From positions 1 to 32,231 of the forward strand of contig DSCM01000098.1 of the NCBI GenBank assembly GCA_011049115.1: 32,231 nt of DNA. The letters run 5' to 3'. This stretch comes from Pseudomonadota bacterium (GTDB lineage Bacteria; Desulfobacterota; Anaeroferrophillalia; Anaeroferrophillales; Tharpellaceae). The notes under the pieces are model-generated. The model was not told where the DNA came from, searched no databases, and saw nothing but the letters and a program-made list of their open reading frames with translations. Shown here in pieces: positions 12,343-30,061 of the stretch; position 1 is the stretch's first letter; each line of letters begins with the position of its first letter. The translations under genes and the position numbers were made by a program.

Positions 12343-13839
12343 CTACCAGCCCCGGGCCGCGAGTTCCAGAGCCCGACGCATGGCCGAAGCCTTGTTGAGC
12401 GTTTCCTGATACTCCAGTTCCGGCCGGGAATCTGCCACAATCCCGGCCCCGGCCTGAAAATAGAGGCGCTCGTCCTTGACCGTCACCGTGCGAATCGTAA
12501 TCGCGAAATCCATATCCCCGGAAAAGCCGAAATAACCAACCGCCCCGGCATAGGGACCCCGACGGGTCGGTTCAAGTTCGTCGATAATTTCAAGGGCCCT
12601 GACCTTGGGAGCCCCGCTCACAGTGCCGGCCGGATAACAGGCCCGAAAAGCGGCAAACATGTCAAGTCCCTGACGCAATTCCCCTTCAACATGGGAAACG
12701 ATATGCATGACATGCGAATAGCGCTCGATTTTCATCAGTTCCTCGACCCGCACTCGGCCGTAATCGACAACCCGGCCGATGTCGTTGCGCCCCAGATCCA
12801 CCAGCATGATATGCTCCGCCCGCTCCTTGGGATCCGCCAGCAGCTCTTCCGCCAGGCGGCGGTCCGCGTCCGCATCGACTCCGCGCGGCCGGGTTCCGGC
12901 GATCGGCCGCACCTCCACCCGGTTGCCGTTTTTGCGTACCAGAAGTTCCGGCGAAGAACCGATCAACCGCTCGCCGGCAAAATTAAAATGAAACATGTAA
13001 GGCGAAGGGTTGATCAGACGCAGAGCCCGGTAAACGGCCCCCGGATCGATTTTCTGCAGGCAGTGAAAACGCTGGGCCAGAACCACCTGAATCAGATCTC
13101 CGGCCTTGACATAATCAACCGCCCGCGCCACCATCCGCAGGAACTGAGCCTTCGTCATATTGGCCTCAAAGGCCAGGGGTTCAGATACCGGAGTCGGGGC
13201 CACCCAGGCCAGCGGCCGGCGAATCCGACTGACAACCTCATCCAGGTCAGTCAGCGCCTCGCGATAAAGCTCGGCCTTTTTTTCACCGCTAATAGCTTCG
13301 TCACCGACATCAACCAGACGAACCAGAGACAGACTGTGCCGCAGATTGTCATGGACCAGCAGCATGCCGGGAACCATGAACCAGGCGTCGGCCCCGTCGA
13401 CATCACGGTGGGTCGTATCCGGTAATTTTTCAAAGGCCTTGACGGTCTCAAAAGAGAAAAAACCGACCGCTCCGCCGTAAAAATCAGGCAATCCGGCCAC
13501 CGGAGCGGGGCGCATCAGTTGCATCAGGCGGGCCAGTTCCGGCAGAGGATCGACCGTGATCAGCCGCTGCCGCAGCGCCCCCCTGACGATCTCGATTTCG
13601 CCCCGGCGCTGGCAAAAAAGCAGGGCCGGCCGATAACCGATAAAACTGTAACGCCCCCAGCGCTCTCCACCCTCCAGACTTTCCAGGAGAAAGGAAAAAT
13701 CTTCCGCTGCGGCCAGCTTGTAATAGAGGGTCAGCGGGGTATCGAGATCAGCGACAATCTCGCGGCAAACCGGGATATAGAGATAATGTTCCGTCAGCTG
13801 GGAAAACTCGCTGAATTCCGGAAAAATCTTTTCGCTCAT
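12343..13839 (-). CDS. trpE: Anthranilate synthase component I
   Basis: The 498-residue protein makes anthranilate from chorismate, using ammonia normally handed over by the TrpG amidotransferase. The N-terminal domain (about 1-180) has a LESLEGGERWGRYSFIG segment typical of feedback-sensitive TrpE. The chorismate-binding domain shows NPSPYMFHF, PIAGTRPRG, LVDLGRNDIGRV, GTVSGAPKVRALEIID and GYFGFSGDMDFAI. Length and the LESxxxGRYSF region favour TrpE over PabB. The ATG follows GAGG by 6 bases. Transcription entering the gene must pass the attenuator just upstream. No TrpG gene is adjacent, so the glutaminase must be encoded elsewhere, perhaps shared with PabA. Confidence 0.95.
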   Translation of the reverse strand: MSEKIFPEFSEFSQLTEHYLYIPVCREIVADLDTPLTLYYKLAAAEDFSFLLESLEGGERWGRYSFIGYRPALLFCQRRGEIEIVRGALRQRLITVDPLPELARLMQLMRPAPVAGLPDFYGGAVGFFSFETVKAFEKLPDTTHRDVDGADAWFMVPGMLLVHDNLRHSLSLVRLVDVGDEAISGEKKAELYREALTDLDEVVSRIRRPLAWVAPTPVSEPLAFEANMTKAQFLRMVARAVDYVKAGDLIQVVLAQRFHCLQKIDPGAVYRALRLINPSPYMFHFNFAGERLIGSSPELLVRKNGNRVEVRPIAGTRPRGVDADADRRLAEELLADPKERAEHIMLVDLGRNDIGRVVDYGRVRVEELMKIERYSHVMHIVSHVEGELRQGLDMFAAFRACYPAGTVSGAPKVRALEIIDELEPTRRGPYAGAVGYFGFSGDMDFAITIRTVTVKDERLYFQAGAGIVADSRPELEYQETLNKASAMRRALELAARGW

Positions 13840-17518: not shown

Positions 17519-20500
17519 TCAGCTTTGCCCCCATAATCCCCGCCAGAGTCCTTTAAAATCCTCGATAATGATGTAGAGAGCCGGAACCATGACAAGTAAG
17601 ATAGCGGTTGAAAAAAGGATGCCGAAGCCCAGGGAGATCGCCATGGGAATCAGAAAGCGGGCCTGCCTGGAGGTTTCAAAAATCATCGGCATCAAGCCCA
17701 GAAAGGTCGTCAGCGTGGTCAGAAGAATCGGCCGAAAACGCTGGGTTCCGGCATTGATGATCGCGGCATAAGGGGTTGCACCGTCACGCACCTGACGATT
17801 GGCGAAGTCGATCAGCACCAGGGCGTCGTTAACCACGACCCCCGAAAGCGCGACGATGCCGAACATACTCAGCAAGCTTAAACCATAGCCCATCAGGAGG
17901 TGGCCGACAATCGCCCCGACAATGCCGAAAGGAATGCTGATCATGATAATCAGAGGCTGAATATAGCTGCGAAAAGGAATGGCCAGAAGAAAATAAATCA
18001 CCATCAGAGCCAGGATCATACCCTGCCCGAGGGCCGCCATACTCTCCATGCGATCCGCCTGCTTGCCGGCGAAATCATAGTTTAAACCATGATATTTCTG
18101 CTGCAAAAGCGGCAGGACTTCCTTTTTCAGAGCCGCCCCCACCATATCCGCCTTACTTTGCGGGGTCACCTCACAAGTGACATTGACGATCCGACGTCCA
18201 TCCAGGCGCTCAATGCTGGTATAGGCCTTTCCCCGCCTAACATTAACCACATCCAGCAGCGGCACCTTGATCCCTTTCGGGGTTGTGACCAGCATCTCCT
18301 CCAGATAATATTCAGCTTCTCTTTCAATCTCCGGATGACGAACCATGATCTTGATCTCATTGCGGCCGCGCAGCTGGCGAAAAACCTCATACCCGTAGTA
18401 GGCGTTGCGAATCTGGCGGGCGACCTCGGCCGGCTGCAGGCCGAGCTGGTAACCGGCGCTCTTCAGGGTAAGATCGAACTGATCCTTGCCCGGGGTAAAA
18501 CCGTCGTCGATATCCGAAACCAGGGGATACGAGGCCAGGGCTTGCGCCAGTTCGGCACTGGCCGAGGCCAGCACCTCAGTGTCCCGATGCTGCAATTCCA
18601 CAGTCAGAGCCGCGCTGGAACCCGGCCCCCCCCGGTCGGACTGAAACTGCAGGGTCTCGACCCCGGCCAGACCGCCGACCTGACGGCGCCAGCGCTCAGT
18701 GAAAGCGCCGGTATTGACCGGCCTGATTTCCGGGGCCGTCATATGGACCTGTACCCAGGAGGTATGACGATCAATATAGGAAAGAATGCCCTTGAGCTGT
18801 TGGTCCCGCCCGATTTCATCCAGCAGGCTCTCGGCGGAAGCAGTCAGCCGGCGGCTGACGGCCAGAGTTTCGGCCACCGGCACGCCGACCGGCAAGGTGG
18901 CCGAGGCATAGGCATAATCGGATTCTACCTTGGGAAAGAGCGTCATACCCATACGTCCGCTGGCGACATAGGCCACCGTCACCGCCAGAATCAGAATTCC
19001 GACGCTCATACTGACATAGCGAAACCGCAATGAAAAGGAAAGCGACGGAGCGTAGAGATTGCGGATCAGGGCGGCGATCGCCAGGGAAACCTTCTGCTGC
19101 TGTCGACTGAGAAAAACCATGATCGGATTTCTCAGCTCTCGCTGATGACCGAGATGGGCCGGCAGCACAAAAAGGGCTTCAATCAGGGAGATAAGAAAGA
19201 CCGCGGCCACGACCACCGGAATATGGCGAAAGATCTTACCCAAGACTCCGGGCACGAAATAGAGCGGCATGAAGGTGACGATATTGGTGAGAATACTGAA
19301 GGTCACCGGCACCGCCACCTCTTTGCCCCCCTTGATCGCCGCGGCCAGCGAGCCTAAACCCGCCTGTTTGTAGCTGTATACGTTTTCCCCGACGACAATG
19401 GCATCGTCAACCACGATCCCCAATGCGATGATAAAGGCGAAAAGCGAGACCATGTTGATACTGACCCCGAACAACGGAATCACCAGCAGCGAGCCGAGAA
19501 AGGAAATGGGAATACCCATGGTCACCCAGAAGGCCAGTCGGGCTTCCAAGAAAACCGCGAGCAGGATGAAAACCAGGGCCAGTCCGAAATAGCCGTTTCT
19601 CACGAGCAGATTGACACGCTGTCTGAAGACTTCGGAACGGTCGTCAACCGTATCCAGAAAAACGCCTTCCGGCATCATCCGGCGTAGTTTTTCCAATTGC
19701 CGGAAAACCGCGTCGGCGACCTGGATCGGAGTCTGGTTTCCGATTCTGAAAACATTGATTCCCAGAGCGGGCCGATCGTTATAAAAAAGAAATTTGTCGG
19801 TTTCTTCGAAGCCATCTCTGATTTCGGCGATTTCACCCAGGGTCACGCTACTCCCCCCGGCATTACTGATGATCGGAATCCGGGAAAATTCCTCGGCGTA
19901 ATCCTTTCTTTCGGTCATCCGCACTAAAATATCGCCGCCCGCGGTCCGAATCGTGCCGCCCGGAATATCCTGCGCCGCGTTTTTAACCCGGGCCGCGACC
20001 TGGGCTAGGGTCAGGTTATAGGACTGCAGCACCTCCTGGGAAACCTCGATACTGAGTTCCATGGGACTTTCCCCCAGCAGCTCAACCTGGGTGATATCGG
20101 GATCATGCAACAACTGATCACGAATCATTTCAGTAACTTCGCGCAGAACCCGAGCTTCTCGCGGACCAGAAACCAACATCGTGATAACCTGCCGCTTATG
20201 GGAGGGAATGGTCACCAGGGGTTCTTCGGCATCCTCGGGAAAGGAATAGATGCGATCAACCTCGTTCTTGATATCAACGGCCAGCTGTTGCAGATCGGCA
20301 TCGATCTGAGCCTCGATTCGAACCGTACCGCTGCCTTCATTGGCAATCGAATACACCTCCTTGATGCCGTCCAGATTCTGAATCGCCTCCTCGATCGGCA
20401 GAATAATCCCATCGGCGACCTCTTCCGGACTGGCGCCGGGATACAGCACCGAAACCACGACCTGGTCAAGGGTAAATTCGGGAAAAACCTCCTGCTTGAT

Positions 20501-20650
20501 CCTGGTCCCCCAGAAAAAACCACCCACCAGGAGAAAAATCATCAACAGGTTGGCGGCCACCGAATTACCGGCCATCCAGCCGATCGGACCGCGGCCGAGG
20601 CGCAAACCGCCCCGCGGCGGTTTAGGGTCAGGGTTTTTCAGTCGAGTCAT
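17519..20650 (-). CDS. RND-type efflux pump, inner-membrane transporter (HAE1-like)
   Basis: The 1043-residue protein has the AcrB-family plan: TM1 at about 25-47, a large periplasmic porter domain, a block of membrane helices at about 340-540, a second periplasmic domain, and a final helix block at about 870-1030. ASPEEVADGIILPIEEAI and the proton-relay pair in ALGIVVDDAIVVGENVY in TM4 are clear. The second half contains GVVVNDALVLIDFANR. It exports substrates using the proton gradient in a tripartite complex with the adjacent fusion protein and outer-membrane factor. Substrate cannot be told; HAE1-like motifs suggest drugs or hydrophobic compounds, not metals. Its start overlaps the end of the fusion-protein gene by 23 bases. 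Confidence 0.93.
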   Translation of the reverse strand: MTRLKNPDPKPPRGGLRLGRGPIGWMAGNSVAANLLMIFLLVGGFFWGTRIKQEVFPEFTLDQVVVSVLYPGASPEEVADGIILPIEEAIQNLDGIKEVYSIANEGSGTVRIEAQIDADLQQLAVDIKNEVDRIYSFPEDAEEPLVTIPSHKRQVITMLVSGPREARVLREVTEMIRDQLLHDPDITQVELLGESPMELSIEVSQEVLQSYNLTLAQVAARVKNAAQDIPGGTIRTAGGDILVRMTERKDYAEEFSRIPIISNAGGSSVTLGEIAEIRDGFEETDKFLFYNDRPALGINVFRIGNQTPIQVADAVFRQLEKLRRMMPEGVFLDTVDDRSEVFRQRVNLLVRNGYFGLALVFILLAVFLEARLAFWVTMGIPISFLGSLLVIPLFGVSINMVSLFAFIIALGIVVDDAIVVGENVYSYKQAGLGSLAAAIKGGKEVAVPVTFSILTNIVTFMPLYFVPGVLGKIFRHIPVVVAAVFLISLIEALFVLPAHLGHQRELRNPIMVFLSRQQQKVSLAIAALIRNLYAPSLSFSLRFRYVSMSVGILILAVTVAYVASGRMGMTLFPKVESDYAYASATLPVGVPVAETLAVSRRLTASAESLLDEIGRDQQLKGILSYIDRHTSWVQVHMTAPEIRPVNTGAFTERWRRQVGGLAGVETLQFQSDRGGPGSSAALTVELQHRDTEVLASASAELAQALASYPLVSDIDDGFTPGKDQFDLTLKSAGYQLGLQPAEVARQIRNAYYGYEVFRQLRGRNEIKIMVRHPEIEREAEYYLEEMLVTTPKGIKVPLLDVVNVRRGKAYTSIERLDGRRIVNVTCEVTPQSKADMVGAALKKEVLPLLQQKYHGLNYDFAGKQADRMESMAALGQGMILALMVIYFLLAIPFRSYIQPLIIMISIPFGIVGAIVGHLLMGYGLSLLSMFGIVALSGVVVNDALVLIDFANRQVRDGATPYAAIINAGTQRFRPILLTTLTTFLGLMPMIFETSRQARFLIPMAISLGFGILFSTAILLVMVPALYIIIEDFKGLWRGLWGQS

Positions 20651-21908
20651 GCGCCGCCCCGGCCTCCTTCACTTTTCCCGCTTCATGATCGTCGGTTGCC
20701 GTCCGTGGCGGCCTGACCTTCAGCGGCATGCCGTCCAGCGGCGCCGCCAGTTTTGAAATGATCACCCGGTCTTCGGGCTGAAGCCCGGAACCGACAAAAA
20801 CCTCGCGCAAGCCCCGCCAGACAATTTCAACCGGCTGAAAACGCAATTTATCCTCGCTGTCGGCCAGCATGAGAATATCATTTTCGGACAGCACCGAGCG
20901 CGGCAACCGGTAAACCCGATCAAGGGTCGCGCCCTTGATCACGGCCCTAACAAAACTGCCCAACAACAACGGAGAACGACCGTTTTTCAACCCCAGAGGA
21001 TCGTCGACCGCGATCAGCAGGCGGGCCATCAGGCCATCCTTGTCGAGATCCGGCGCGAGCGCCACGATGCGCCCTGAATAGGGCAGCGGCTCACGGCCGT
21101 AGAGTTCAACCAAAGCTCCTTTTCGGTCTTGCGAGGGCAGCTCGAACCAGGCCAGTTTGGCGACCGGAACCGAAATTTCAGCCCAGAAAAGATCAATCGC
21201 CGCCAGGGTCGCAATCGGGGTCGAGGTCAGAATTTCAGATCCCAGATCAATACTTTCCTCGCGCACAACCAGATCGAAAGGCGCCCTGATCACCGTCCTG
21301 TCAAGATCGACCCGAGCCCGTTCCCGCAGCGTCCGCGCCGATTTCACCTGGGCTTCGGCCTTGGCCAGCTGTGGTTTGCGCAGGGCCAGATCCAGACTGG
21401 TGGTTTCGAGATCATCGGTTAAGGCCGTGATCAGATTCCACTCCTGCCGAGCCACCTCCTGACTGCCCTCTTCCAGACGCAGATCCGCCTCGGCCAACGC
21501 CAGGGCGTCATCCGCCCGCCGCAACTCCAGATCATAATCAATCCGGTCCAGACGCAACAACACTTCCCCCTCCCGGATCACTCCGCCGGGAATAAAATCG
21601 GGATGGAGGTAGACCACGCGGCCGGGGACCCGGGCCTTGAGACTGATCTCCCGCGCCGGGACCACGCGGCCATGGGCTTCGATGGTAACCGTTTGCGAGG
21701 TCGGCGTAACGGCCATGACTTCCACCATGGTTTCCATCTTCGCCGGCGCCTGACGCCTCACCTGCGGTCGGGTCAGCAACAGATAACGACTGAGGACAAA
21801 GGCCGCCGTCAAAAACAGCAGCACCAGGGCCAGGGCCAGCAGACGCATGGCCCGGGAACGTTTCGGCATGGCTGTATCCGCCGCCATTTTCTGTAAGATC
21901 TCGGACAT
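20628..21908 (-). CDS. RND efflux periplasmic adaptor (membrane fusion protein)
   Basis: The product (426 residues from ATG 21908; a GTG three codons upstream is possible) has a membrane anchor at about 21-43 (LALALVLLFLTAAFVLSRY). It then has the adaptor layout: a first beta segment and half lipoyl region (SLKARVPGRVVYLHPDF, REGEVLLRLD), a long Ala/Leu/Glu-rich helical hairpin at about 125-205, the returning lipoyl half (TVIRAPFDLVVREESIDLG), and beta-barrel and proximal domains. It bridges the RND pump and the outer-membrane channel. There is no lipobox, so it is likely anchored by the helix. It lies between the outer-membrane factor gene and the pump gene in one operon. Confidence 0.9.
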   Translation of the reverse strand: MSEILQKMAADTAMPKRSRAMRLLALALVLLFLTAAFVLSRYLLLTRPQVRRQAPAKMETMVEVMAVTPTSQTVTIEAHGRVVPAREISLKARVPGRVVYLHPDFIPGGVIREGEVLLRLDRIDYDLELRRADDALALAEADLRLEEGSQEVARQEWNLITALTDDLETTSLDLALRKPQLAKAEAQVKSARTLRERARVDLDRTVIRAPFDLVVREESIDLGSEILTSTPIATLAAIDLFWAEISVPVAKLAWFELPSQDRKGALVELYGREPLPYSGRIVALAPDLDKDGLMARLLIAVDDPLGLKNGRSPLLLGSFVRAVIKGATLDRVYRLPRSVLSENDILMLADSEDKLRFQPVEIVWRGLREVFVGSGLQPEDRVIISKLAAPLDGMPLKVRPPRTATDDHEAGKVKEAGAAHDSTEKP

Positions 21909-21950
21909 CTTTTCCACTCTTCAAAAAAAAATTCATTACTAAAGTTGACT

Positions 21951-22007
21951 ATTCAGCCAACCCGAATATTCTCGGTTAAACACGAGTTCATAAGCACGTG
22001 GCTGAAT
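21951..22007. other. Inverted repeat in the gap between outer-membrane factor and adaptor genes
   Basis: ATTCAGCCA at 21951-21959 is matched by TGGCTGAAT at 21999-22007, with inner AACCGA/TCGGTT-like pairing around GAATATTC. The 104-base gap is the only sizeable spacer inside the efflux operon. A folded RNA here could set the ratio of channel to pump. There is no T-run after it. Confidence 0.4.
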
Positions 22008-22021
22008 CGTTATAAAAAGGA

Positions 22022-23461
22022 TTACTTCGCCGGCCGGCTGGAGTTTCCGACGGTCTCGACCGTGGGTCCGACCGCCACCCTCTGCAACCAGGCTCCACCC
22101 AAAGCCCGGTGCAGCCCCACCCGGGCCACCAGCAAACGTTTCTCTTCACTGATAATATCGTGCTCTAATTGCAACGAAGTCAGCTCTTCATTAAGGACAT
22201 TGATAAAATCACTGCTGCCGTTGAGATAGCGCCGCCGGGCTTCACGCAGGGTCTGACGCGAAAGTTCCAGCTGACGGCGCAATGACGCCAGAATCGCGGC
22301 CGCTTCCGCTTCGCGCACCAAAGCGTCCTCAACCTCATGCACAGCCTTGATCACAATTTGCCGATAGGCGGCCAGCCGTTCGTCCGCCAGCGCCCGAATC
22401 CGGCCGATCTCGGCCCGACGCCGGCCGCCGTCCAGCAGGGGCGCGCTCAGACTGCCGGCCAGATTGGCAATCCAGTTGTCAAAAAGATCTGCCGGAGCCT
22501 CGGCAAAATAGCGACCCGAAGAGGTCAGACGCAGCGCCGGCAGCCGCTCGGCCCGGGCCGCGACCAGCTCCCAGTCCGTGGATTTCAGGCGCAAGCCGGC
22601 GGCGCGAACATCGGGCCGGGCGGCCAGCAGGTCGGCCGGCAGGCCAAGGGCCGGCAGAGAGTCGATCCGGGGAAAATCTCGGGCGCCCACCAACGCTTCC
22701 TCAAGCCGCTCACGCCCGGCCAACAGCGCCAGGCCCCGCCGCAGCACGAACTGATTCTTACGGGTTGGAATCAGGGCGGCCTCCAGTTTTTCGACAATTT
22801 GCCGCTGCTGATAAATATCCAGCGCCGTGGCCCGGGCCAGAGGAAAACGCAGGGTTATAAGTTGCAGCAGTTGTCGCTGCAACTCCAACTGCCTTTCGAA
22901 CAGGTCCTCATGACAACGATTTTCAATCAGTTCGAGCCAGATTTCCGTCAGCTCGCAGCTGACCCCCAGAACCGCCGTCTGCAGATCGGCTCGCGAAGCC
23001 TGAAAATTTTCCTTTTCGCTTTCCTTGAGGGCTCGCACCCGACCCCAGAGATCGATCTCATAGGACAGACTCAAACCCATACTCCACTCATCTTCAGAAA
23101 CCGCCGGGCTGCCTTGGCGGTCGATTTTTTGCCGGTCTCCGGTAGCGGTCTGCAGGATTTCGGGGAATTGATAGGCGCCGGCCTTCAGAGCCGTATAGCG
23201 CGCCTGTTCAAGACGGGCTTGAGCCTGAACGATCGTAAAATCAGATTGCAGGGCGAGCGTGACCAGAGAGTCGAGTTCCGGACTGTTAAATGAGTGCCAC
23301 CAAGGTGTCGACGATGGTTCGGCATCGCTGTAAAGAGAAAACCCGGACGGCAGCGCGACCGCCGCCGCGCCCCGAACTTCCGGCTGCGGCCGCAGAACAC
23401 AACCGGAAAACAACGCCAGGAAAGCAAACCCCAACCCCAATCTCGTCAGCTGATGCGACAT
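22022..23461 (-). CDS. Outer-membrane efflux factor (TolC/OprM-type lipoprotein)
   Basis: The 479-residue product begins with a lipoprotein signal, LGFAFLALFSGC, placing the lipidated Cys at about residue 21. The rest has two repeats of the outer-membrane efflux protein fold, rich in long helices (QARLEQARYTALKAGAY, LTEIWLELIENR, VHEVEDALVREAE), with YEIDLWGRVRAL and LARPDVRAAGLRLK typical of the OprM/NodT branch. It forms the trimeric exit duct for the adjacent adaptor and pump. The start is preceded by GAAGG at 7 bases and lies 15 bases after the tetR stop, so it is co-transcribed with the regulator. Confidence 0.92.
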   Translation of the reverse strand: MSHQLTRLGLGFAFLALFSGCVLRPQPEVRGAAAVALPSGFSLYSDAEPSSTPWWHSFNSPELDSLVTLALQSDFTIVQAQARLEQARYTALKAGAYQFPEILQTATGDRQKIDRQGSPAVSEDEWSMGLSLSYEIDLWGRVRALKESEKENFQASRADLQTAVLGVSCELTEIWLELIENRCHEDLFERQLELQRQLLQLITLRFPLARATALDIYQQRQIVEKLEAALIPTRKNQFVLRRGLALLAGRERLEEALVGARDFPRIDSLPALGLPADLLAARPDVRAAGLRLKSTDWELVAARAERLPALRLTSSGRYFAEAPADLFDNWIANLAGSLSAPLLDGGRRRAEIGRIRALADERLAAYRQIVIKAVHEVEDALVREAEAAAILASLRRQLELSRQTLREARRRYLNGSSDFINVLNEELTSLQLEHDIISEEKRLLVARVGLHRALGGAWLQRVAVGPTVETVGNSSRPAK

Positions 23462-23476
23462 GAGTTAACCTTCAAA

Positions 23477-24106
23477 TCATTCCCGGCAACAAAAATTGAT
23501 GCCGGCCAGGGAAAAATCGGTGATGTGCCGGGCGAAGCGCTCGGCGTCGACAAACCGGATCGGATTTTTTTGCAGATGATAGCGACGCCCTTTTTCGTTA
23601 TAGCTTAAAAACAAGCACTGACTCATAACACTGAACAGCAGGCGAAAAAGTAAATTTTCATTCAGTTCCCGGCCGCAGACATCCCGAATCAAGGCTTTGA
23701 CAAGCCCTTGATGCCGCAAGATCTCACCGGCGACCAGAGCGCAGCCGGCCCCGCTCGGTTCAACCATTTCCTTGGCCACCAGACCATAAAAATTACCTGC
23801 GGTTTCCTCACTCAGGATCCGCCGCAACAAGGCCAGGACAAAATCGTAAAACCGTTTCTCCGGCCTGTCCCTGAAGTCGAGCTTGAAGGGATAGAGGGCT
23901 TCCGCCTGTTCCCCGGTGAACTTCAGAACCGCCAGATAAAGTGCTTCCTTGGAGCGAAAATGATAATTCACGGAAGCAATGTTGGCTTCGGCGTGGTCAC
24001 AGATTTCGGCCACCGAGGTATTGGCGTAGCCTTTTTCGGAAAAAATGATCGCGGCGCTCTCGAGAAGACGCTGCCGGGTGCCCTTTTTTTTTCGCTTGAC
24101 CGTCAT
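23477..24106 (-). CDS. TetR/AcrR-family repressor of the efflux operon (CecR-like C-terminus)
   Basis: I choose ATG 24106, preceded by GGAAGG at 8 bases, giving 209 residues that open MTVKRKKKGTRQRLLESAAIIF. The helix-turn-helix is at about 25-60 (TSVAEICDHAEANIASVNYHF, then RSKEALY). The ligand domain contains VAKEMVEPS and FSVMSQCLFL, resembling the DUF1956/CecR C-terminal domain. Members repress efflux genes and are released by small ligands. It is the first gene of tetR - outer-membrane factor - adaptor - pump, so it very likely represses its own operon. The protein ends with two adjacent cysteines near the C-terminus. Confidence 0.88.
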   Translation of the reverse strand: MTVKRKKKGTRQRLLESAAIIFSEKGYANTSVAEICDHAEANIASVNYHFRSKEALYLAVLKFTGEQAEALYPFKLDFRDRPEKRFYDFVLALLRRILSEETAGNFYGLVAKEMVEPSGAGCALVAGEILRHQGLVKALIRDVCGRELNENLLFRLLFSVMSQCLFLSYNEKGRRYHLQKNPIRFVDAERFARHITDFSLAGINFCCRE

Positions 24107-24411: not shown

Positions 24412-24431
24412 TTTCGACAAGATTGTCGAAA
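24412..24431. promoter_or_regulatory. Perfect 9-2-9 palindrome, candidate activator or repressor site
   Basis: TTTCGACAA, two bases, then TTGTCGAAA: a perfect inverted repeat. A further TTGTCG half-site lies at 24443-24448. The centre is about 117 bases upstream of the predicted sigma-54 start at 24539, a normal distance for an NtrC-type enhancer. It is also about 50 bases upstream of the -35 of the tetR promoter, so binding by the TetR protein is an alternative. Confidence 0.6.
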
Positions 24432-24511
24432 CCTGACCCTGATTGTCGCACTGCAATTTTATAACAAGTAAAAAAACATGAACAATCAAATAGTTACAAC
24501 ACGCGATAGGG

Positions 24512-24527
24512 TTGGCACACTCTTCGC
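24512..24527 (+). promoter_or_regulatory. Sigma-54 (-24/-12) promoter for the Cys-tailed exported protein
   Basis: TTGGCACACTCTTCGC shows GG at 24514-24515 and GC at 24526-24527, exactly 10 bases apart, with TGGCAC perfect and TCGC in place of TTGC. This fits the sigma-54 consensus with one change. Transcription would start about 24539 and read into the gene at 24708. The 170-base leader holds a TCCGGT/ACCGGA hairpin and a GTCCGGCCGGAC palindrome followed by T6. Confidence 0.65.
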
Positions 24528-24707
24528 TAATACTCATAACCAAACCAGCAAACCGCAGCCTGAAGGATCCGGTCCGACCGGAAAACAAAAAAGTTTCAGG
24601 CGCGGTTGTCCGGCCGGACCTGTTTTTTAAGCCTCGGCAAAACTGCGGGGGAAATAGTCACCACCGCAAACGAACGTAAACCCTTAAATAGACAAATGGA
24701 GAAAACC

Positions 24708-25193
24708 ATGCAAAAAACTCTGGTAAGTATCACCCTGGCTCTGATTTTCGCTCTTTTCTGCAGTTCCGCCCTGTGGGCCGGCAACGGCAAAGGCATGCGG
24801 GACGGATCAATGCTTGAGATTGATCTGGACAGCGCCGTAAACATTGCGGGAACCGTCAGCGCCTCCGGCATCGCCGGCGCCGGCCTGACCATCGATACCG
24901 GCGCCGGTGAATTCGTCACCGTCTACGGTCTCGGTTCCCAGGCTTTCTGGAATTCCCTGGGTGTGGTCAAGCCTCAGGTCGGTGAAGAGATCGAGCTTGA
25001 TGCGGTTGAAGTGACCTTCAGCGACACTTCGACCCGTTTGATCGCCATCAGCCTGACCATGGCTGACGGCACGATCATCACCCTGCGCACAGCCGAAGGA
25101 CCGGTCTGGAGAGGCGGCCGGCAAGCCGGCGGCTCCTGTGTCAATGGGGGAACCTGCGTCAAGGGTGGAACCTGTCCCCTGGGCCAGAAGTAA
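24708..25193 (+). CDS. Small exported protein with Gly/Cys-repeat tail, function unknown
   Basis: ATG 24708 follows GGAG at 6 bases and gives 161 residues. A signal peptide covers about 1-24 (ITLALIFALFCSSALWA). The central 100 residues are beta-rich, with LTIDTGAGEFVTVYGLG, QVGEEIELDAVEV and RLIAISLTMADG, resembling small OB-like exported domains, though I cannot name a family with confidence. The last 20 residues repeat Gly-Gly-x-Cys: GGSCVNGGTCVKGGTC, three cysteines spaced by six residues. Such a tail could bind metal, form disulfides or carry an attached group. It stands alone behind a sigma-54 promoter and is divergent from tetR. A dispersed palindromic repeat follows 33 bases after the stop. 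Confidence 0.75.
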   Translation: MQKTLVSITLALIFALFCSSALWAGNGKGMRDGSMLEIDLDSAVNIAGTVSASGIAGAGLTIDTGAGEFVTVYGLGSQAFWNSLGVVKPQVGEEIELDAVEVTFSDTSTRLIAISLTMADGTIITLRTAEGPVWRGGRQAGGSCVNGGTCVKGGTCPLGQK

Positions 25194-25226: not shown

Positions 25227-25283
25227 TCTTCCGGGGACAGGATCTGATTTTCGTCGAGGAATCAGGATCGTGTCCCCGGAAGA
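25227..25283 (-). repeat. Dispersed palindromic repeat, copy A
   Basis: TCTTCCGGGGACA and TGTCCCCGGAAGA form the ends of a 57-base imperfect hairpin. Read on the minus strand it gives GGGGACACGATCCTGATT, a 10-base loop and ATCAGATCCTGTCCCC. The same unit occurs at 30107 and 31782 in the opposite orientation. It follows the stop of the Cys-tailed protein gene. Confidence 0.8.
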
Positions 25284-25655: not shown

Positions 25656-26672
25656 ATGAAAAGGTTCTATGAAGGCCTGAAAAGATGGCGAAGCCCGCTG
25701 CTTTTGGTCGCGATCAGCCTTTTCACGTTCGCTGAGGCCGCTGCGTTCAATCTTGAGACCGGAATCAGTTGCGGCTATGACGATAACCTTCTGCTGACCA
25801 AAGGCGGCCCGGGTGCCTTTTTCAACCAGGCGGAAATTGATTTTCGGTGGAATCGGTCCTTAAGCGGAGCCACGACGCTCACCCTCTCTGCCTTTGCCGA
25901 TTATTGTGATTATCATGGAGAAGATGACCGCTACCAGCTCGGTCTGGGCCTGGAGAGCGCGAGCCGACTGCAAGCCCTGCCCTTGTCCCTGGAATTTTTC
26001 AGCCTGGTCAACAACCGGCGTAACCCGCTGATTCCGGACAACGACTTTGACGCTCTGAACCTTGGCGGCCGCCTGGTCTGGCCTTTCGACTTACGCCTTG
26101 ATCTGATCTTCGCCTGTGAACTGAGCTGGGAGAAATATTGCGCCGATTATGTTACCGACGGTTTCCACCGAAAGTTGAGTCTCGGCTCAGGACCGACTGC
26201 AAACCAAACCCGGCAAGCTCGCGGCGATCTTTCCCCGGGCCGGGGCGAGCCCGGAAGCTCCCGCCATAATAACGGCGAACGCAGTGACCGCCTGACCACG
26301 ATCAGGTTTGAATCGGCTTACGCCGTCAACCCCTATCTGGAACTCGGGGGCGGGATTTTCTACCAGCAGCGTCACTCTTCGATTGACCTGGAAAGCCGGA
26401 CGACCTCGGGGCTGAATCTGAGTCTGGACCGGCGGATTACGCCGACACTTTCACTGAACGCTGCGGGCGGGGGCGAACGCTCGTCTTACAAATATGACTA
26501 TCAGCAAAAGGAGCGCCGCGAAAAAAACTATTTTTTCACTCTCGGCGCCGCCTGGCGGCAAGGTCCTTGGACGATTTCCGGCAGCTGGAGTCGGCTGCAA
26601 AGAAACTCTGATCTGGAAGAAGATAATTTTCGGGCAAATCAATGGCAAGGTCGCTTAAGCTACTCATTCTAG
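25656..26672 (+). CDS. Predicted outer-membrane beta-barrel protein, function unknown
   Basis: The 338-residue product has a signal peptide at about 1-30 (SPLLLVAISLFTFAEAAAF). It then has alternating beta-strand patterns, many aromatic residues at strand ends, and a final Tyr-Ser-Phe, the usual C-terminal signal for outer-membrane insertion. The segment LETGISCGYDDNLLLT at the mature N-terminus resembles barrel proteins with a repeating GYxDN motif. A loop at about 180-210 is rich in Gly, Arg and Ser. It may be a pore or sensor protein. It heads a plus-strand unit: the next gene overlaps its end by 31 bases, and a two-component system follows. I do not recognise a named family. Confidence 0.72.
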   Translation: MKRFYEGLKRWRSPLLLVAISLFTFAEAAAFNLETGISCGYDDNLLLTKGGPGAFFNQAEIDFRWNRSLSGATTLTLSAFADYCDYHGEDDRYQLGLGLESASRLQALPLSLEFFSLVNNRRNPLIPDNDFDALNLGGRLVWPFDLRLDLIFACELSWEKYCADYVTDGFHRKLSLGSGPTANQTRQARGDLSPGRGEPGSSRHNNGERSDRLTTIRFESAYAVNPYLELGGGIFYQQRHSSIDLESRTTSGLNLSLDRRITPTLSLNAAGGGERSSYKYDYQQKERREKNYFFTLGAAWRQGPWTISGSWSRLQRNSDLEEDNFRANQWQGRLSYSF

Positions 26673-27082
26673 TCTTCTGGGGCGTTTGCTGCCTGATTTT
26701 TGGCGGCCGGCCTGGCCTGGCCCAAACCTGGGAGCTGACCCGCGGCCGAGTCCTCAGCCTGGTGGAAACTGAAACTCCGCCGATCGTTCACCTGAAAATC
26801 GCCCTGAATGCCGGCTCCGGCGTTTCAACCGCGCCGACCGGTCCCGACCGAAAGTCTACAGATTCAGGACTCATCGAGCTTGATATCCCCGCCGGTGAAC
26901 TGCCCGCAAACCTCAAACCCGGGGATGATATTCGCATCTGGGAAAAAGCCGACCCCAACGGCCGCATCCTTCGCCTTTCCAGGGCTTGCCATCATGACGC
27001 AACCGGCGTCCGCTCCCGGCTCGGCGGCAAGGGACGGATTCGCGGCGGCCGCGGCCACGGCGGCAAAGGCGGAGGCCGCTGA
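26642..27082 (+). CDS. Small exported basic protein with Gly/His/Arg tail
   Basis: The 146-residue product begins with a signal peptide (about 1-27, LLILVFWGVCCLIFGGRPGLAQ). Its middle part is beta-rich with GRVLSLVETE and LKPGDDIRIWEKADPNGR, reminiscent of a small OB-like domain. The C-terminal 30 residues start with Cys-His-His and become Gly/Arg/Lys-rich (GGKGRIRGGRGHGGKGGGR), possible metal or polyanion binding. The start overlaps the barrel gene by 31 bases. The kinase gene starts 47 bases after its stop, so it is probably co-transcribed with the signalling pair. It may be an accessory sensor in the periplasm; this is inference. Confidence 0.65.
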   Translation: MARSLKLLILVFWGVCCLIFGGRPGLAQTWELTRGRVLSLVETETPPIVHLKIALNAGSGVSTAPTGPDRKSTDSGLIELDIPAGELPANLKPGDDIRIWEKADPNGRILRLSRACHHDATGVRSRLGGKGRIRGGRGHGGKGGGR

Positions 27083-27129
27083 AATAAGAACCGCCCGGCG
27101 CCGGCCCCTTGATCCAGGGAAAACCTGAA

Positions 27130-28749
27130 ATGAAAAAAAAATCGCCCTCGAATTCAGCCCCAAGCGGTCCGCCTCTCTGGCTGATCAACCTCGCCCTTTT
27201 CGGCATTCTGATTCTTGTCGTGCTGCTTTATTTTTTTCGTCAGGCGGAGAATGAACGCCGTTCTTTTAACCGGCATTCCCAGGAACATGCACAACTTCTG
27301 GCCCGCGTTATTCAACTCAACGCGGACAATGCCGTCGCCGCCGCCGCCGCCATCCGCGAAGCGGCCCACACCTTTTTGTTCAACTCGGCCCGGTTCGTGG
27401 ATTATCTGGCCGCGATTGAACCTTTCAACGAAGAAGAACTGACCGCCTTGGCCCTGGAATCGGGCCTCAACGGGATCACCCTGCGAAACCAACTCGACCG
27501 CAGCAGCGGCCCGCCCGGCTGGGAAAGCGAACAGGCTCTGGCCCTTCTCAGCCAAAGCCGGCCCGAGGAAAAACTTTTTATCCATGATGCCGCCGGCCGG
27601 ATGTTTCTGTTTTTCTATCCCCGCCGGGAGAGCGAGGGCGGCATTCTCCTGGGTTTCAATGCCCGGGGGCTGGAAGAATTACAGGACCGGGTCGGTCTAC
27701 CGCGACTTTTACAGACCCTGAGTGGTCTGCCGGGCATAAACCAGGTCGGAATTGTGGCTGAGAAACCGGCGGACCTGCCCGGCGCGTTACCGGAAAGCCG
27801 CCGTTTGCCGGCCAACATGATGGTCGAAGTCCGGCTGCCGTCCGGCCATACCCTGGTCGCCGGTTTTGATGCGGAATTTCTCTTTGCCCGGCAAAAAAGC
27901 CTGTGGCGCGATTTTTTGCTTTTCGCCCTGATTTTGAGTGCTCTCGGCATCTTTTTTTCGTGGCTTCTCTACCGCTACCAGCTGACCTCCGTACACCGGG
28001 CCCGGGACTTTGAACGCCGCCTGGCCCGCGAGCACGAAGACGCCGCCCTGGGCCGGGCCGCGGCGGCCCTGGCCCACGAAATCAAAAATCCTTTAAACGC
28101 CATCGCCATCGGCCTACAGCGGCTGGAACTCGAGGACAGCGGCCTTACTCCCGAATACGCCAGGCTGGTGGAAGCCCTGCGGCAGGCGGTCGGCCGCGCC
28201 GACCATATCGTCGGCGATCTGCGCCGTTTCGCCCACCCCCTGCATATTCGAAAACAAGCGCTGGATCTCGTCGCCCTGCTCGACAACCTGATCACCCTCT
28301 ATCGGGAATATGGAAACGCGGCCGGCATCGAAATCAGTCTGCAAAGCGCTTTTCAGACAACTCCGATCACGATTATGGCGGACGCCGATCTTCTCGGCCA
28401 GGCCCTGGAAAATCTTTTTAAAAACGCGGCCGAGGCTCAACCCAAAGGCGGTTGGTTGAAAATTTCCTTGCAAAACCGAAATAATTTTGTCGAAATGCTC
28501 ATGGAAAACCCCGGCCTGCGCGTTCCGGCCCCGGAACTTGAGCGTATCGTCAAGCCCTGGTTTACAACCAAGGCCCGGGGCAGCGGGCTCGGGCTGGCGA
28601 TTGTGGAACGTATCATCAGCGCCCACGGCGGCGGTTTTCGGGTAAGCAGTCCCGCGCCCGGAATCCTGCGCCAGCACATCCGGCTGCCGGCGCCCGGCGC
28701 TCAGAACGAAAAGGTGAAAGAAAACATTCATGCACATTCTGATCATTGA
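27130..28749 (+). CDS. Membrane sensor histidine kinase (NtrB/ZraS-like)
   Basis: From ATG 27130 (AGGGA 9 bases upstream) the product has 539 residues. TM1 is at about 17-38 and TM2 at about 262-284, with a 220-residue periplasmic sensor domain between. The phospho-acceptor His is in AALAHEIKNPLNAI (H316). The ATPase domain has the N box ALENLFKNAAEA (N432), a divergent ENPG segment in place of the usual DxGxG, and GSGLGLAIVERIISAHGG. This layout, paired with an NtrC-family regulator, matches ZraS and HydH-like kinases, which respond to zinc or envelope stress; the signal here is unknown. The gene overlaps the regulator by 20 bases. Confidence 0.92.
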   Translation: MKKKSPSNSAPSGPPLWLINLALFGILILVVLLYFFRQAENERRSFNRHSQEHAQLLARVIQLNADNAVAAAAAIREAAHTFLFNSARFVDYLAAIEPFNEEELTALALESGLNGITLRNQLDRSSGPPGWESEQALALLSQSRPEEKLFIHDAAGRMFLFFYPRRESEGGILLGFNARGLEELQDRVGLPRLLQTLSGLPGINQVGIVAEKPADLPGALPESRRLPANMMVEVRLPSGHTLVAGFDAEFLFARQKSLWRDFLLFALILSALGIFFSWLLYRYQLTSVHRARDFERRLAREHEDAALGRAAAALAHEIKNPLNAIAIGLQRLELEDSGLTPEYARLVEALRQAVGRADHIVGDLRRFAHPLHIRKQALDLVALLDNLITLYREYGNAAGIEISLQSAFQTTPITIMADADLLGQALENLFKNAAEAQPKGGWLKISLQNRNNFVEMLMENPGLRVPAPELERIVKPWFTTKARGSGLGLAIVERIISAHGGGFRVSSPAPGILRQHIRLPAPGAQNEKVKENIHAHSDH

Positions 28750-30061
28750 CGACGAAGCCGACCAGCGCGAGCTGCTGGGCGGCTTTCTGGAAAAACAGGG
28801 TTTCACCGTCAGCCTCGCGGCTGACGGCGGCGCGGCGCGGGCGGCGGTCGCCGAACGGCATATCGACCTGGCCCTGCTTGACCACCGGCTGCCCGATATT
28901 ACCGGGGACGGCTTGCTTCCGGTCCTGCAGGAAATCAACCCGCTACTGAAAACCATCATGATCACCGCCTACGGAGAAGTGGAAACCGCAGTCAGCGTGA
29001 TGCGCGCCGGCGCCGTTGATTTTTTTGAAAAACCGGTCGATTTGCGACGACTGCTGCAACGCCTGCGCGAGCTTGAGCAGGAGTTGCTGATCAGCCTGGA
29101 TGTCGAGGAGGTCAATCGCATTCTGAGCCGGGAGCAGGAACTGCCCTTGAAAATGGTGGGAAAAAGTCCGGCCATGCTCAACCTGCTCTCCCTGGTCCGG
29201 CGGGCGGCGCCGACCCCCTGGACGGTTCTGATCCGCGGAGAAACCGGCACCGGCAAGGAGCTGATCGCCCGCCTGCTCCATCTCTTAAGCCCCCGTAAGG
29301 AATCTCCCTTTATCGCCGTCAACTGCGCGGCAATGCCGGAGCATCTGGTGGAATCGGAACTTTTCGGTCACGAAAAAGGAGCCTTCACGAGCGCCGCCGG
29401 GCGGCATCGCGGCCATTTTGAAATGGCCGCCGGCGGCACCCTCCTGCTTGACGAAATCGGGGAGCTGCCGCTGAACACCCAGGCAAAGCTGCTGCGCGCC
29501 CTGCAGGAAAAGAAAATCAACCGGGTCGGAGGAGAAAAGGAAATCGAGGTCGATATTCGGCTGCTGGCCGCGACCAACCGGGATCTGGGGGAAATGGTGG
29601 CGGCCGGCGGTTTTCGCGAGGATCTTTTTTACCGCCTCAAGGTAATCGAGGTGGAGCTTCCGCCGCTGAGACAACGCCGCGAGGATATTCCCCAACTGGT
29701 TCGGGAGCTGCTGCAGCGCCATGGCCTACACGGCATCGAATTCGCGCCCGAGGCTCTGAGCGCCCTGGCCCGTTACGGCTTTCCCGGAAACATCCGCGAG
29801 CTCGAGCATATCGTTCAACGCTGCACCACCCTGGCCCGCAGCTCCCTGATCAAGCTCGAAGATCTGCCGACCGAAATTCGTTTTCCCGAAAAAAGCAACC
29901 GCAACACCCTGGAAGCGCGACTCTTCGCCCTGGAACACCGGCTCTTGCTCGAAGCCCTGGAAAACGCCGACTGGGTTCAGACCCGGGCCGCCGACGCCCT
30001 GGGTTTAAGCGAGCGGGTTCTGCGTTATAAAATCGGCAAACATAAAATCAGACGCTCCTGA
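28730..30061 (+). CDS. Sigma-54-dependent response regulator (NtrC/ZraR family)
   Basis: The 443-residue protein has a receiver domain (1-115) with D7/D8 and the phosphorylated D51 in LALLDHRLPD. It also has an AAA+ domain (about 140-365) with Walker A GETGTGKE, Walker B GGTLLLDEIGELP and sigma-54 contact loop GAFTSA, and a C-terminal Fis-type helix-turn-helix (about 415-440, TRAADALGLSERVLRYKI). When phosphorylated by the partner kinase it should activate sigma-54 promoters. The contact loop has Ser where most have Gly (GAFTGA); functional GAFTSA forms occur. The nearest sigma-54 promoter in the window is at 24512, in front of the Cys-tailed exported protein. The start overlaps the kinase end by 20 bases. 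Confidence 0.95.
   Translation: MHILIIDDEADQRELLGGFLEKQGFTVSLAADGGAARAAVAERHIDLALLDHRLPDITGDGLLPVLQEINPLLKTIMITAYGEVETAVSVMRAGAVDFFEKPVDLRRLLQRLRELEQELLISLDVEEVNRILSREQELPLKMVGKSPAMLNLLSLVRRAAPTPWTVLIRGETGTGKELIARLLHLLSPRKESPFIAVNCAAMPEHLVESELFGHEKGAFTSAAGRHRGHFEMAAGGTLLLDEIGELPLNTQAKLLRALQEKKINRVGGEKEIEVDIRLLAATNRDLGEMVAAGGFREDLFYRLKVIEVELPPLRQRREDIPQLVRELLQRHGLHGIEFAPEALSALARYGFPGNIRELEHIVQRCTTLARSSLIKLEDLPTEIRFPEKSNRNTLEARLFALEHRLLLEALENADWVQTRAADALGLSERVLRYKIGKHKIRRS

Follow-up and report, generated by a model that had tools for sequence, protein, structure and literature searches.

In Escherichia coli, the ZraSR-ZraP system is a two-component system for envelope stress and zinc, in which an NtrC-family regulator and a kinase control a small number of genes via sigma-54, including one for an exported protein and their own (PMC7657598). 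In Desulfovibrio vulgaris, the two-component sigma-54 activator DVU3381 acts on the operon that encodes it and on a single small gene, a regulon assigned to envelope stress (Table 1 of PMC4641369). The locus considered here lies in a window of 32,231 nucleotides, that is, the whole stretch of DNA that was analysed, from a draft genome of 2.64 Mb in 143 contigs. A relative in the same family, Candidatus Tharpella, has been described as a Desulfobacterota lineage from Auka vent sediments (PMC9213671).

The locus resembles ZraSR-ZraP in that it encodes an NtrC-family regulator, a kinase and an exported protein, with self-control that would be exerted via sigma-54. At related loci, ZraP-like Metal_resist proteins follow the same regulatory element, but no ZraP-like protein was found in the window's operon, where the first gene encodes an OB-fold protein and is followed by a barrel gene. 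As judged from its sequence, the region 24412-24527 very probably controls a sigma-54 operon that regulates itself.

Organisation of the operon

The first operon gene (24708-25193, + strand) encodes an exported OB-fold protein of 161 aa with a Gly/Cys tail. In its predicted structure, a signal helix precedes an OB fold, whose core has a prediction confidence mostly >90, and the Gly/Cys tail is disordered. The best structural matches are OB-fold-domain proteins, with low whole-chain scores; in searches, nothing in Pfam exceeded the cut-off and NCBIfam gave no match. The genes that follow, all on the + strand, encode an outer-membrane beta-barrel protein (25656-26672), a small exported protein of 146 aa whose gene overlaps that of the barrel (26642-27082), a sensor histidine kinase with HisKA and HATPase_c domains (27109-28749, listed with a TTG start, an ATG at 27130 being possible) and an NtrC-family response regulator (28730-30061). 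The earlier note had placed a sigma-54 activator and its kinase 4 kb away, and the activator gene starts 4.0 kb from the first gene (28730 vs 24708).

The genes from 25656 to 30061 overlap or nearly touch and therefore fit a single transcript. The gap between the first gene and the barrel gene is 462 bp long and contains an inverted repeat without a T-run (25227-25283), so that read-through past the first gene is uncertain and has to be inferred. This repeat (TCTTCCGGGGACAGGATC / GATCGTGTCCCCGGAAGA) is probably a mobile extragenic repeat, and a similar element occurs in the leader region of the orthologue in genome G013. On the other side, a TetR/CecR-type regulator of the neighbouring RND efflux genes (23477-24106, - strand), with a separate sigma-70-like promoter at 24360-24333, lies outside the system. 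The cluster at 17519-24106, with RND efflux pump, membrane fusion and outer-membrane genes together with this regulator, adjoins the operon but is apparently unrelated to it.

Enhancer, IHF-type site and promoter

The predicted full site for an activator dimer is the palindrome TTTCGACAA-GA-TTGTCGAAA at 24412-24431, which has no mismatch. A half-site, GATTGTCG at 24441-24448 (+ strand), is a direct repeat of the GATTGTCG at 24421-24428 with 20-bp spacing, and 117 bases separate the palindrome centre from the expected transcription start (~24539). The perfect 9-2-9 palindrome with an extra half-site, which the earlier note had described some 117 bases 5' of this start, is thus exact in position and sequence. 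The genome was searched for TTTCGACAAGATTGTCGAAA, and the sole exact copy in 2.64 Mb is that at 24412-24431. In a shuffled window, 0.02 matches to the palindrome would be expected with up to 3 mismatches. Nonetheless, perfect palindromes with 9-bp arms occur at ten places in the 32-kb window and are not rare, so that chance statistics by themselves say little; it is conservation that decides, and because the palindrome is conserved it stands beyond chance. Among 49 non-redundant sites, a TGTCG was found 9-16 bases past the palindrome in 32, vs 0.2 expected in shuffles.

The sigma-54 -24/-12 element TTGGCACACTCTTCGC is located at 24512-24527 on the + strand. Its GG (24514-24515) and GC (24526-24527) are separated by ten bases, and re-reading of the sequence bears out the exact GG-N10-GC spacing reported before. 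With a score of 10/12 against TGGCACG-N4-TTGCW, the element is among the top two of the window; its counterpart, at 13535 on the - strand, falls inside coding DNA. The TGGCAC-type -24 box and the GG-N10-GC spacing are those by which a sigma-54 promoter is recognised, and the position is kept in relatives, which present TGGCACGACAATCGCW at the same place. The -12 box reads TCGC, not TTGC, a form common to close relatives. Furthermore, rpoN is encoded in the window's genome (PF04552 match, E 2.4e-60).

An IHF site between enhancer and promoter is common at NtrC-type systems, although not universal. Here, a candidate site, AATCAAATAGTTA at 24484-24496 (+ strand), matches WATCAANNNNTTR exactly and lies 16 bases before TGGCAC, a position that recurs in relatives. 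Among the same 49 sites, a match to the IHF consensus, one mismatch being allowed, was found at offset 15-19 or 26-29 in 23 sites and in 10 of 16 families, against a shuffle expectation of 1.07 sites and 1.03 families, with offsets picked after inspection and shuffles that preserved base composition only. The enhancer distances group near 88-95, 99-104 and 109-114, with a helical phasing at 11 bp that reaches p ~4e-7 over all sites and drops to ~0.01 when they are thinned by family; such phasing is only suggestive.

The predicted 5' leader (24539-24707, + strand) holds a terminator-like element by fold prediction, GTCCGGCCGGAC with T6 at 24606-24628, and a second control after initiation is therefore possible. 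The stretch 24551-24628 contains a hairpin in addition to GTCCGGCCGGAC and the T6 after it; as judged by eye, 24573-24583 could instead pair with 24611-24621, which might make for a stronger terminator. GTCCGGCCGGAC has no second copy in the genome; it occurs at the same place before the orthologues in G013 and G014, and was not found before that in G010. Rfam returned no RNA family in the window or in the leader.

Conservation across the family and the phylum

Orthologues of the Cys-tailed protein were identified in ten relatives, and most of those with readable upstream DNA are preceded by the palindrome, a TGTCG about 13 bases further on and a TGGCA[CT] box. The earlier note had named absence of the palindrome before orthologues as grounds for abandoning the proposal; instead, both it and the -24/-12 pair stand before these genes, also across families. 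In G003 and G009, the Cys-tailed gene and the palindrome-promoter pair are on separate contigs, with the pair near a contig end, which probably reflects assembly breaks. G001 and G005 lack the Cys-tailed gene, and there the element lies directly 5' of the barrel gene; for this reason, the promoter is probably operon-wide. A DNA search of relatives with the entire upstream region gave no match, conservation being limited to the short elements.

Elsewhere in the phylum, too, orthologues or the same operon follow the element in families other than this one. The order of Cys-tailed gene, barrel, small exported protein, kinase and regulator is kept in several members of the family (loci L022, L024, L025 and L028), and in other families a kinase and a regulator again come after a Cys-type or DUF1104-like gene. 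Among 59 genomes of related lineages, the palindrome with at most one mismatch was found in 22, namely in 13 of the 14 that encode an orthologue of the regulator and in 9 of the 45 that do not (Fisher p = 1.4e-6, uncorrected for relatedness). These orthologues show 57% identity or more, the next best being 51%. One-mismatch palindromes in G002, G042, G047, G056 and G050 C6 are intragenic and have no promoter, and were set aside as chance occurrences.

A composite pattern, in which the palindrome is followed after 67-97 bases by TGGCAY, has 55 occurrences among the matches listed, vs 3 for the reversed control; the search covered 395 genomes from the phylum, and the 55 are spread over 46 of them. 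The binomial p of 4e-13 was obtained from 54 matches with genomes treated as independent, which they are not. Taken at the sequence level, the predicted enhancer, the candidate bending site and the putative sigma-54 promoter are an old arrangement that is found phylum-wide before small exported proteins.

The regulator that may read the enhancer

The palindrome is a conserved site 5' of the promoter and linked to a regulator gene, whose product (28730-30061) contains receiver, AAA+ and Fis-type HTH domains and is the predicted palindrome binder. Since the genome encodes eleven full sigma-54 activators and cross-talk between them is possible, the enhancer could be used by one of the ten others and not by the cluster's own regulator. 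This seems very unlikely, as the recognition helix SERVLRYK occurs in the cluster's regulator and in none of those ten, and the presence of a regulator orthologue correlates with that of the palindrome. Palindrome-linked regulators elsewhere, including those near ZraP-like genes, share [SN]ER[VM]LRYK, and the linked regulators taken together [SN]ER[VMA]LRYK, which the ten others lack. At two loci, L030 and L137, helix and site shift together: the regulators carry SERALRYK, and the enhancer arm is TCGACG in place of TCGACA (TCGACG-TTTT-TGTCGA and TCGACG-TTTT-CGTCGA, respectively, both with the half-site ATCGTCG). These loci, which had first been scored as lacking the palindrome, are two cases that may be related, and their joint shift is suggestive of a direct pairing and co-evolution of regulator and site. 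The variant enhancers lie upstream of 3719 in L030 and upstream of 7011, on the - strand, in L137.

The sigma-54 contact motif of the window's regulator reads GAFTSA, one residue off GAFTGA, whereas nearly all linked relatives have GAFTGA or GSFTGA, and one has GAFTDA. Contact with sigma-54 could therefore be weakened, and the site might be a relic in this genome, with an activator that no longer drives sigma-54, given that GAFTSA is unique to the window's regulator among the linked ones. Such a loss is similarly improbable, as palindrome, half-site, IHF-type site and promoter are all intact in the window and other natural activators with assigned targets also depart from GAFTGA, with GAFSGA and GAYTGS among the motifs in Table 1 of PMC4641369.

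Other roles for the palindrome

TetR proteins bind palindromes of this size. The palindrome sits between divergently oriented genes, with the start of the TetR gene about 300 bp away, and could accordingly be the operator of the divergent TetR/CecR-type repressor, an alternative that the earlier note had raised. However, a search next to the orthologues of the Cys-tailed gene gave no TetR homologue at any locus, so the TetR gene does not travel with the palindrome. Furthermore, the position of the palindrome relative to the -24/-12 element is kept across families, and the sigma-70-like promoter of the TetR gene lies away from it, which makes an operator highly improbable.

A transcription terminator or other RNA hairpin is the least credible reading, for although the palindrome forms a hairpin on the - strand followed by GGTTTTTT, and the core at DUF2202 promoters lies in longer arms whose two sides vary in concert and precede T's, the core sequence itself is kept in dozens of sites with no compensating changes, the arms are mostly without extension at Cys-gene loci, the palindrome keeps step with the -24/-12 element in its position and no - strand gene lies upstream for termination.

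Targets and regulon

With regard to the genes controlled, the first genes after the element encode the OB-fold protein or DUF1104-like, DUF2202, ZraP-like Metal_resist, EF-hand or glycine-zipper proteins, nearly all of which look exported; the DUF1104 assignment falls below the Pfam cut-off. The earlier note had proposed the Cys-tailed protein as a specific regulon member. This holds insofar as the palindrome and the promoter precede its gene and the orthologous ones. The gene does not appear to be the sole target, as transcription from the promoter probably extends over the entire operon, kinase and regulator included, and the Cys tail is not a defining mark: the Gly/Cys tail is mostly confined to one family, and the OB-fold domain is the conserved part. 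The regulon in the window's genome looks like a single promoter, with more members in relatives. DUF2202, a regulon member in relatives, was not found in the window's genome, and no mention of it was found in the literature searched. A text search of the literature for both half-sites gave, among the matches listed, none on sigma-54.

At the DUF2202 loci L040, L041, L042, L046, L047 and L048, the enhancer core lies within longer inverted repeats whose outer arms co-vary on both sides and are followed by T's, an arrangement that resembles an enhancer inside a terminator, and the -12 box is mostly GT instead of GC. Separately, MITE-like GTAACTATTCAGC inverted repeats about 130-240 bp apart were observed in L013 (2125-2254), L014 (1454-1690) and L040 (838-1077), two of the three between promoter and gene or just 5' of the gene.

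Proposed mechanism and implications

In the proposed mechanism, the kinase (27109-28749) would sense an envelope signal and phosphorylate the NtrC-family regulator (28730-30061), a dimer of which would occupy the palindrome and spread to the half-site at 24441-24448. IHF would bend the DNA at 24484-24496, so that the AAA+ ring could contact the sigma-54 polymerase waiting at 24512-24527 and open the promoter. The resulting transcript would encode the OB-fold/Cys-tailed protein, the barrel, the small exported protein, the kinase and the regulator. As the element usually recurs beside the same sensor-regulator pair, the cluster probably activates itself once its own sensor responds. The types of target point to envelope or metal stress as a possible signal, as do those of known systems, through the functional likeness to ZraSR and DVU3381.

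We lean, if only slightly, towards a broader joint claim: that one code, made of TTCGACAA-N2-TTGTCGAA with half-site, IHF site and sigma-54 promoter and read by SERVLRYK-type regulators, underlies an undescribed phylum-wide envelope/metal response, in which the slot of ZraP is taken by unrelated exported proteins (OB-fold Cys-tailed, DUF1104-like, DUF2202, EF-hand and ZraP-like).

The analysis matches a regulator family to its putative DNA site from sequence alone. The uncharacterised DUF2202, DUF1104-like and OB-fold proteins gain a common regulatory context, and one inducing condition in any culturable relative would therefore hint at the roles of all of them. Additionally, the related promoters offer a natural series on the co-evolution of enhancer distance, IHF position and activator specificity.

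Comparison with known systems

Exported bacterial OB-fold proteins of the YgiW/YdeI type consist of a signal peptide and then one OB-fold domain. The first protein of the window's operon shares this architecture and differs in its Gly/Cys tail. Classical NtrC/NifA promoters present an upstream enhancer, an IHF bend and a -24/-12 element in the same order as the window, but with another enhancer sequence and other target genes. The likeness to the DVU3381 regulon lies in the targets, and is drawn from the description of that regulon, not from the enhancer sequence.

Against the equivalog models, the window's regulator scores 352 bits for ZraR (cut-off 760) and 383.2 bits for NtrC (cut-off 558.6), and the kinase scores 147.6 bits for ZraS (cut-off 479); with scores below these cut-offs, the pair is not assigned to either ZraSR or NtrC. 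The best reading of the sequence is an autoregulated, ZraSR-like envelope two-component system, which would be new in its detail and ordinary in its kind.
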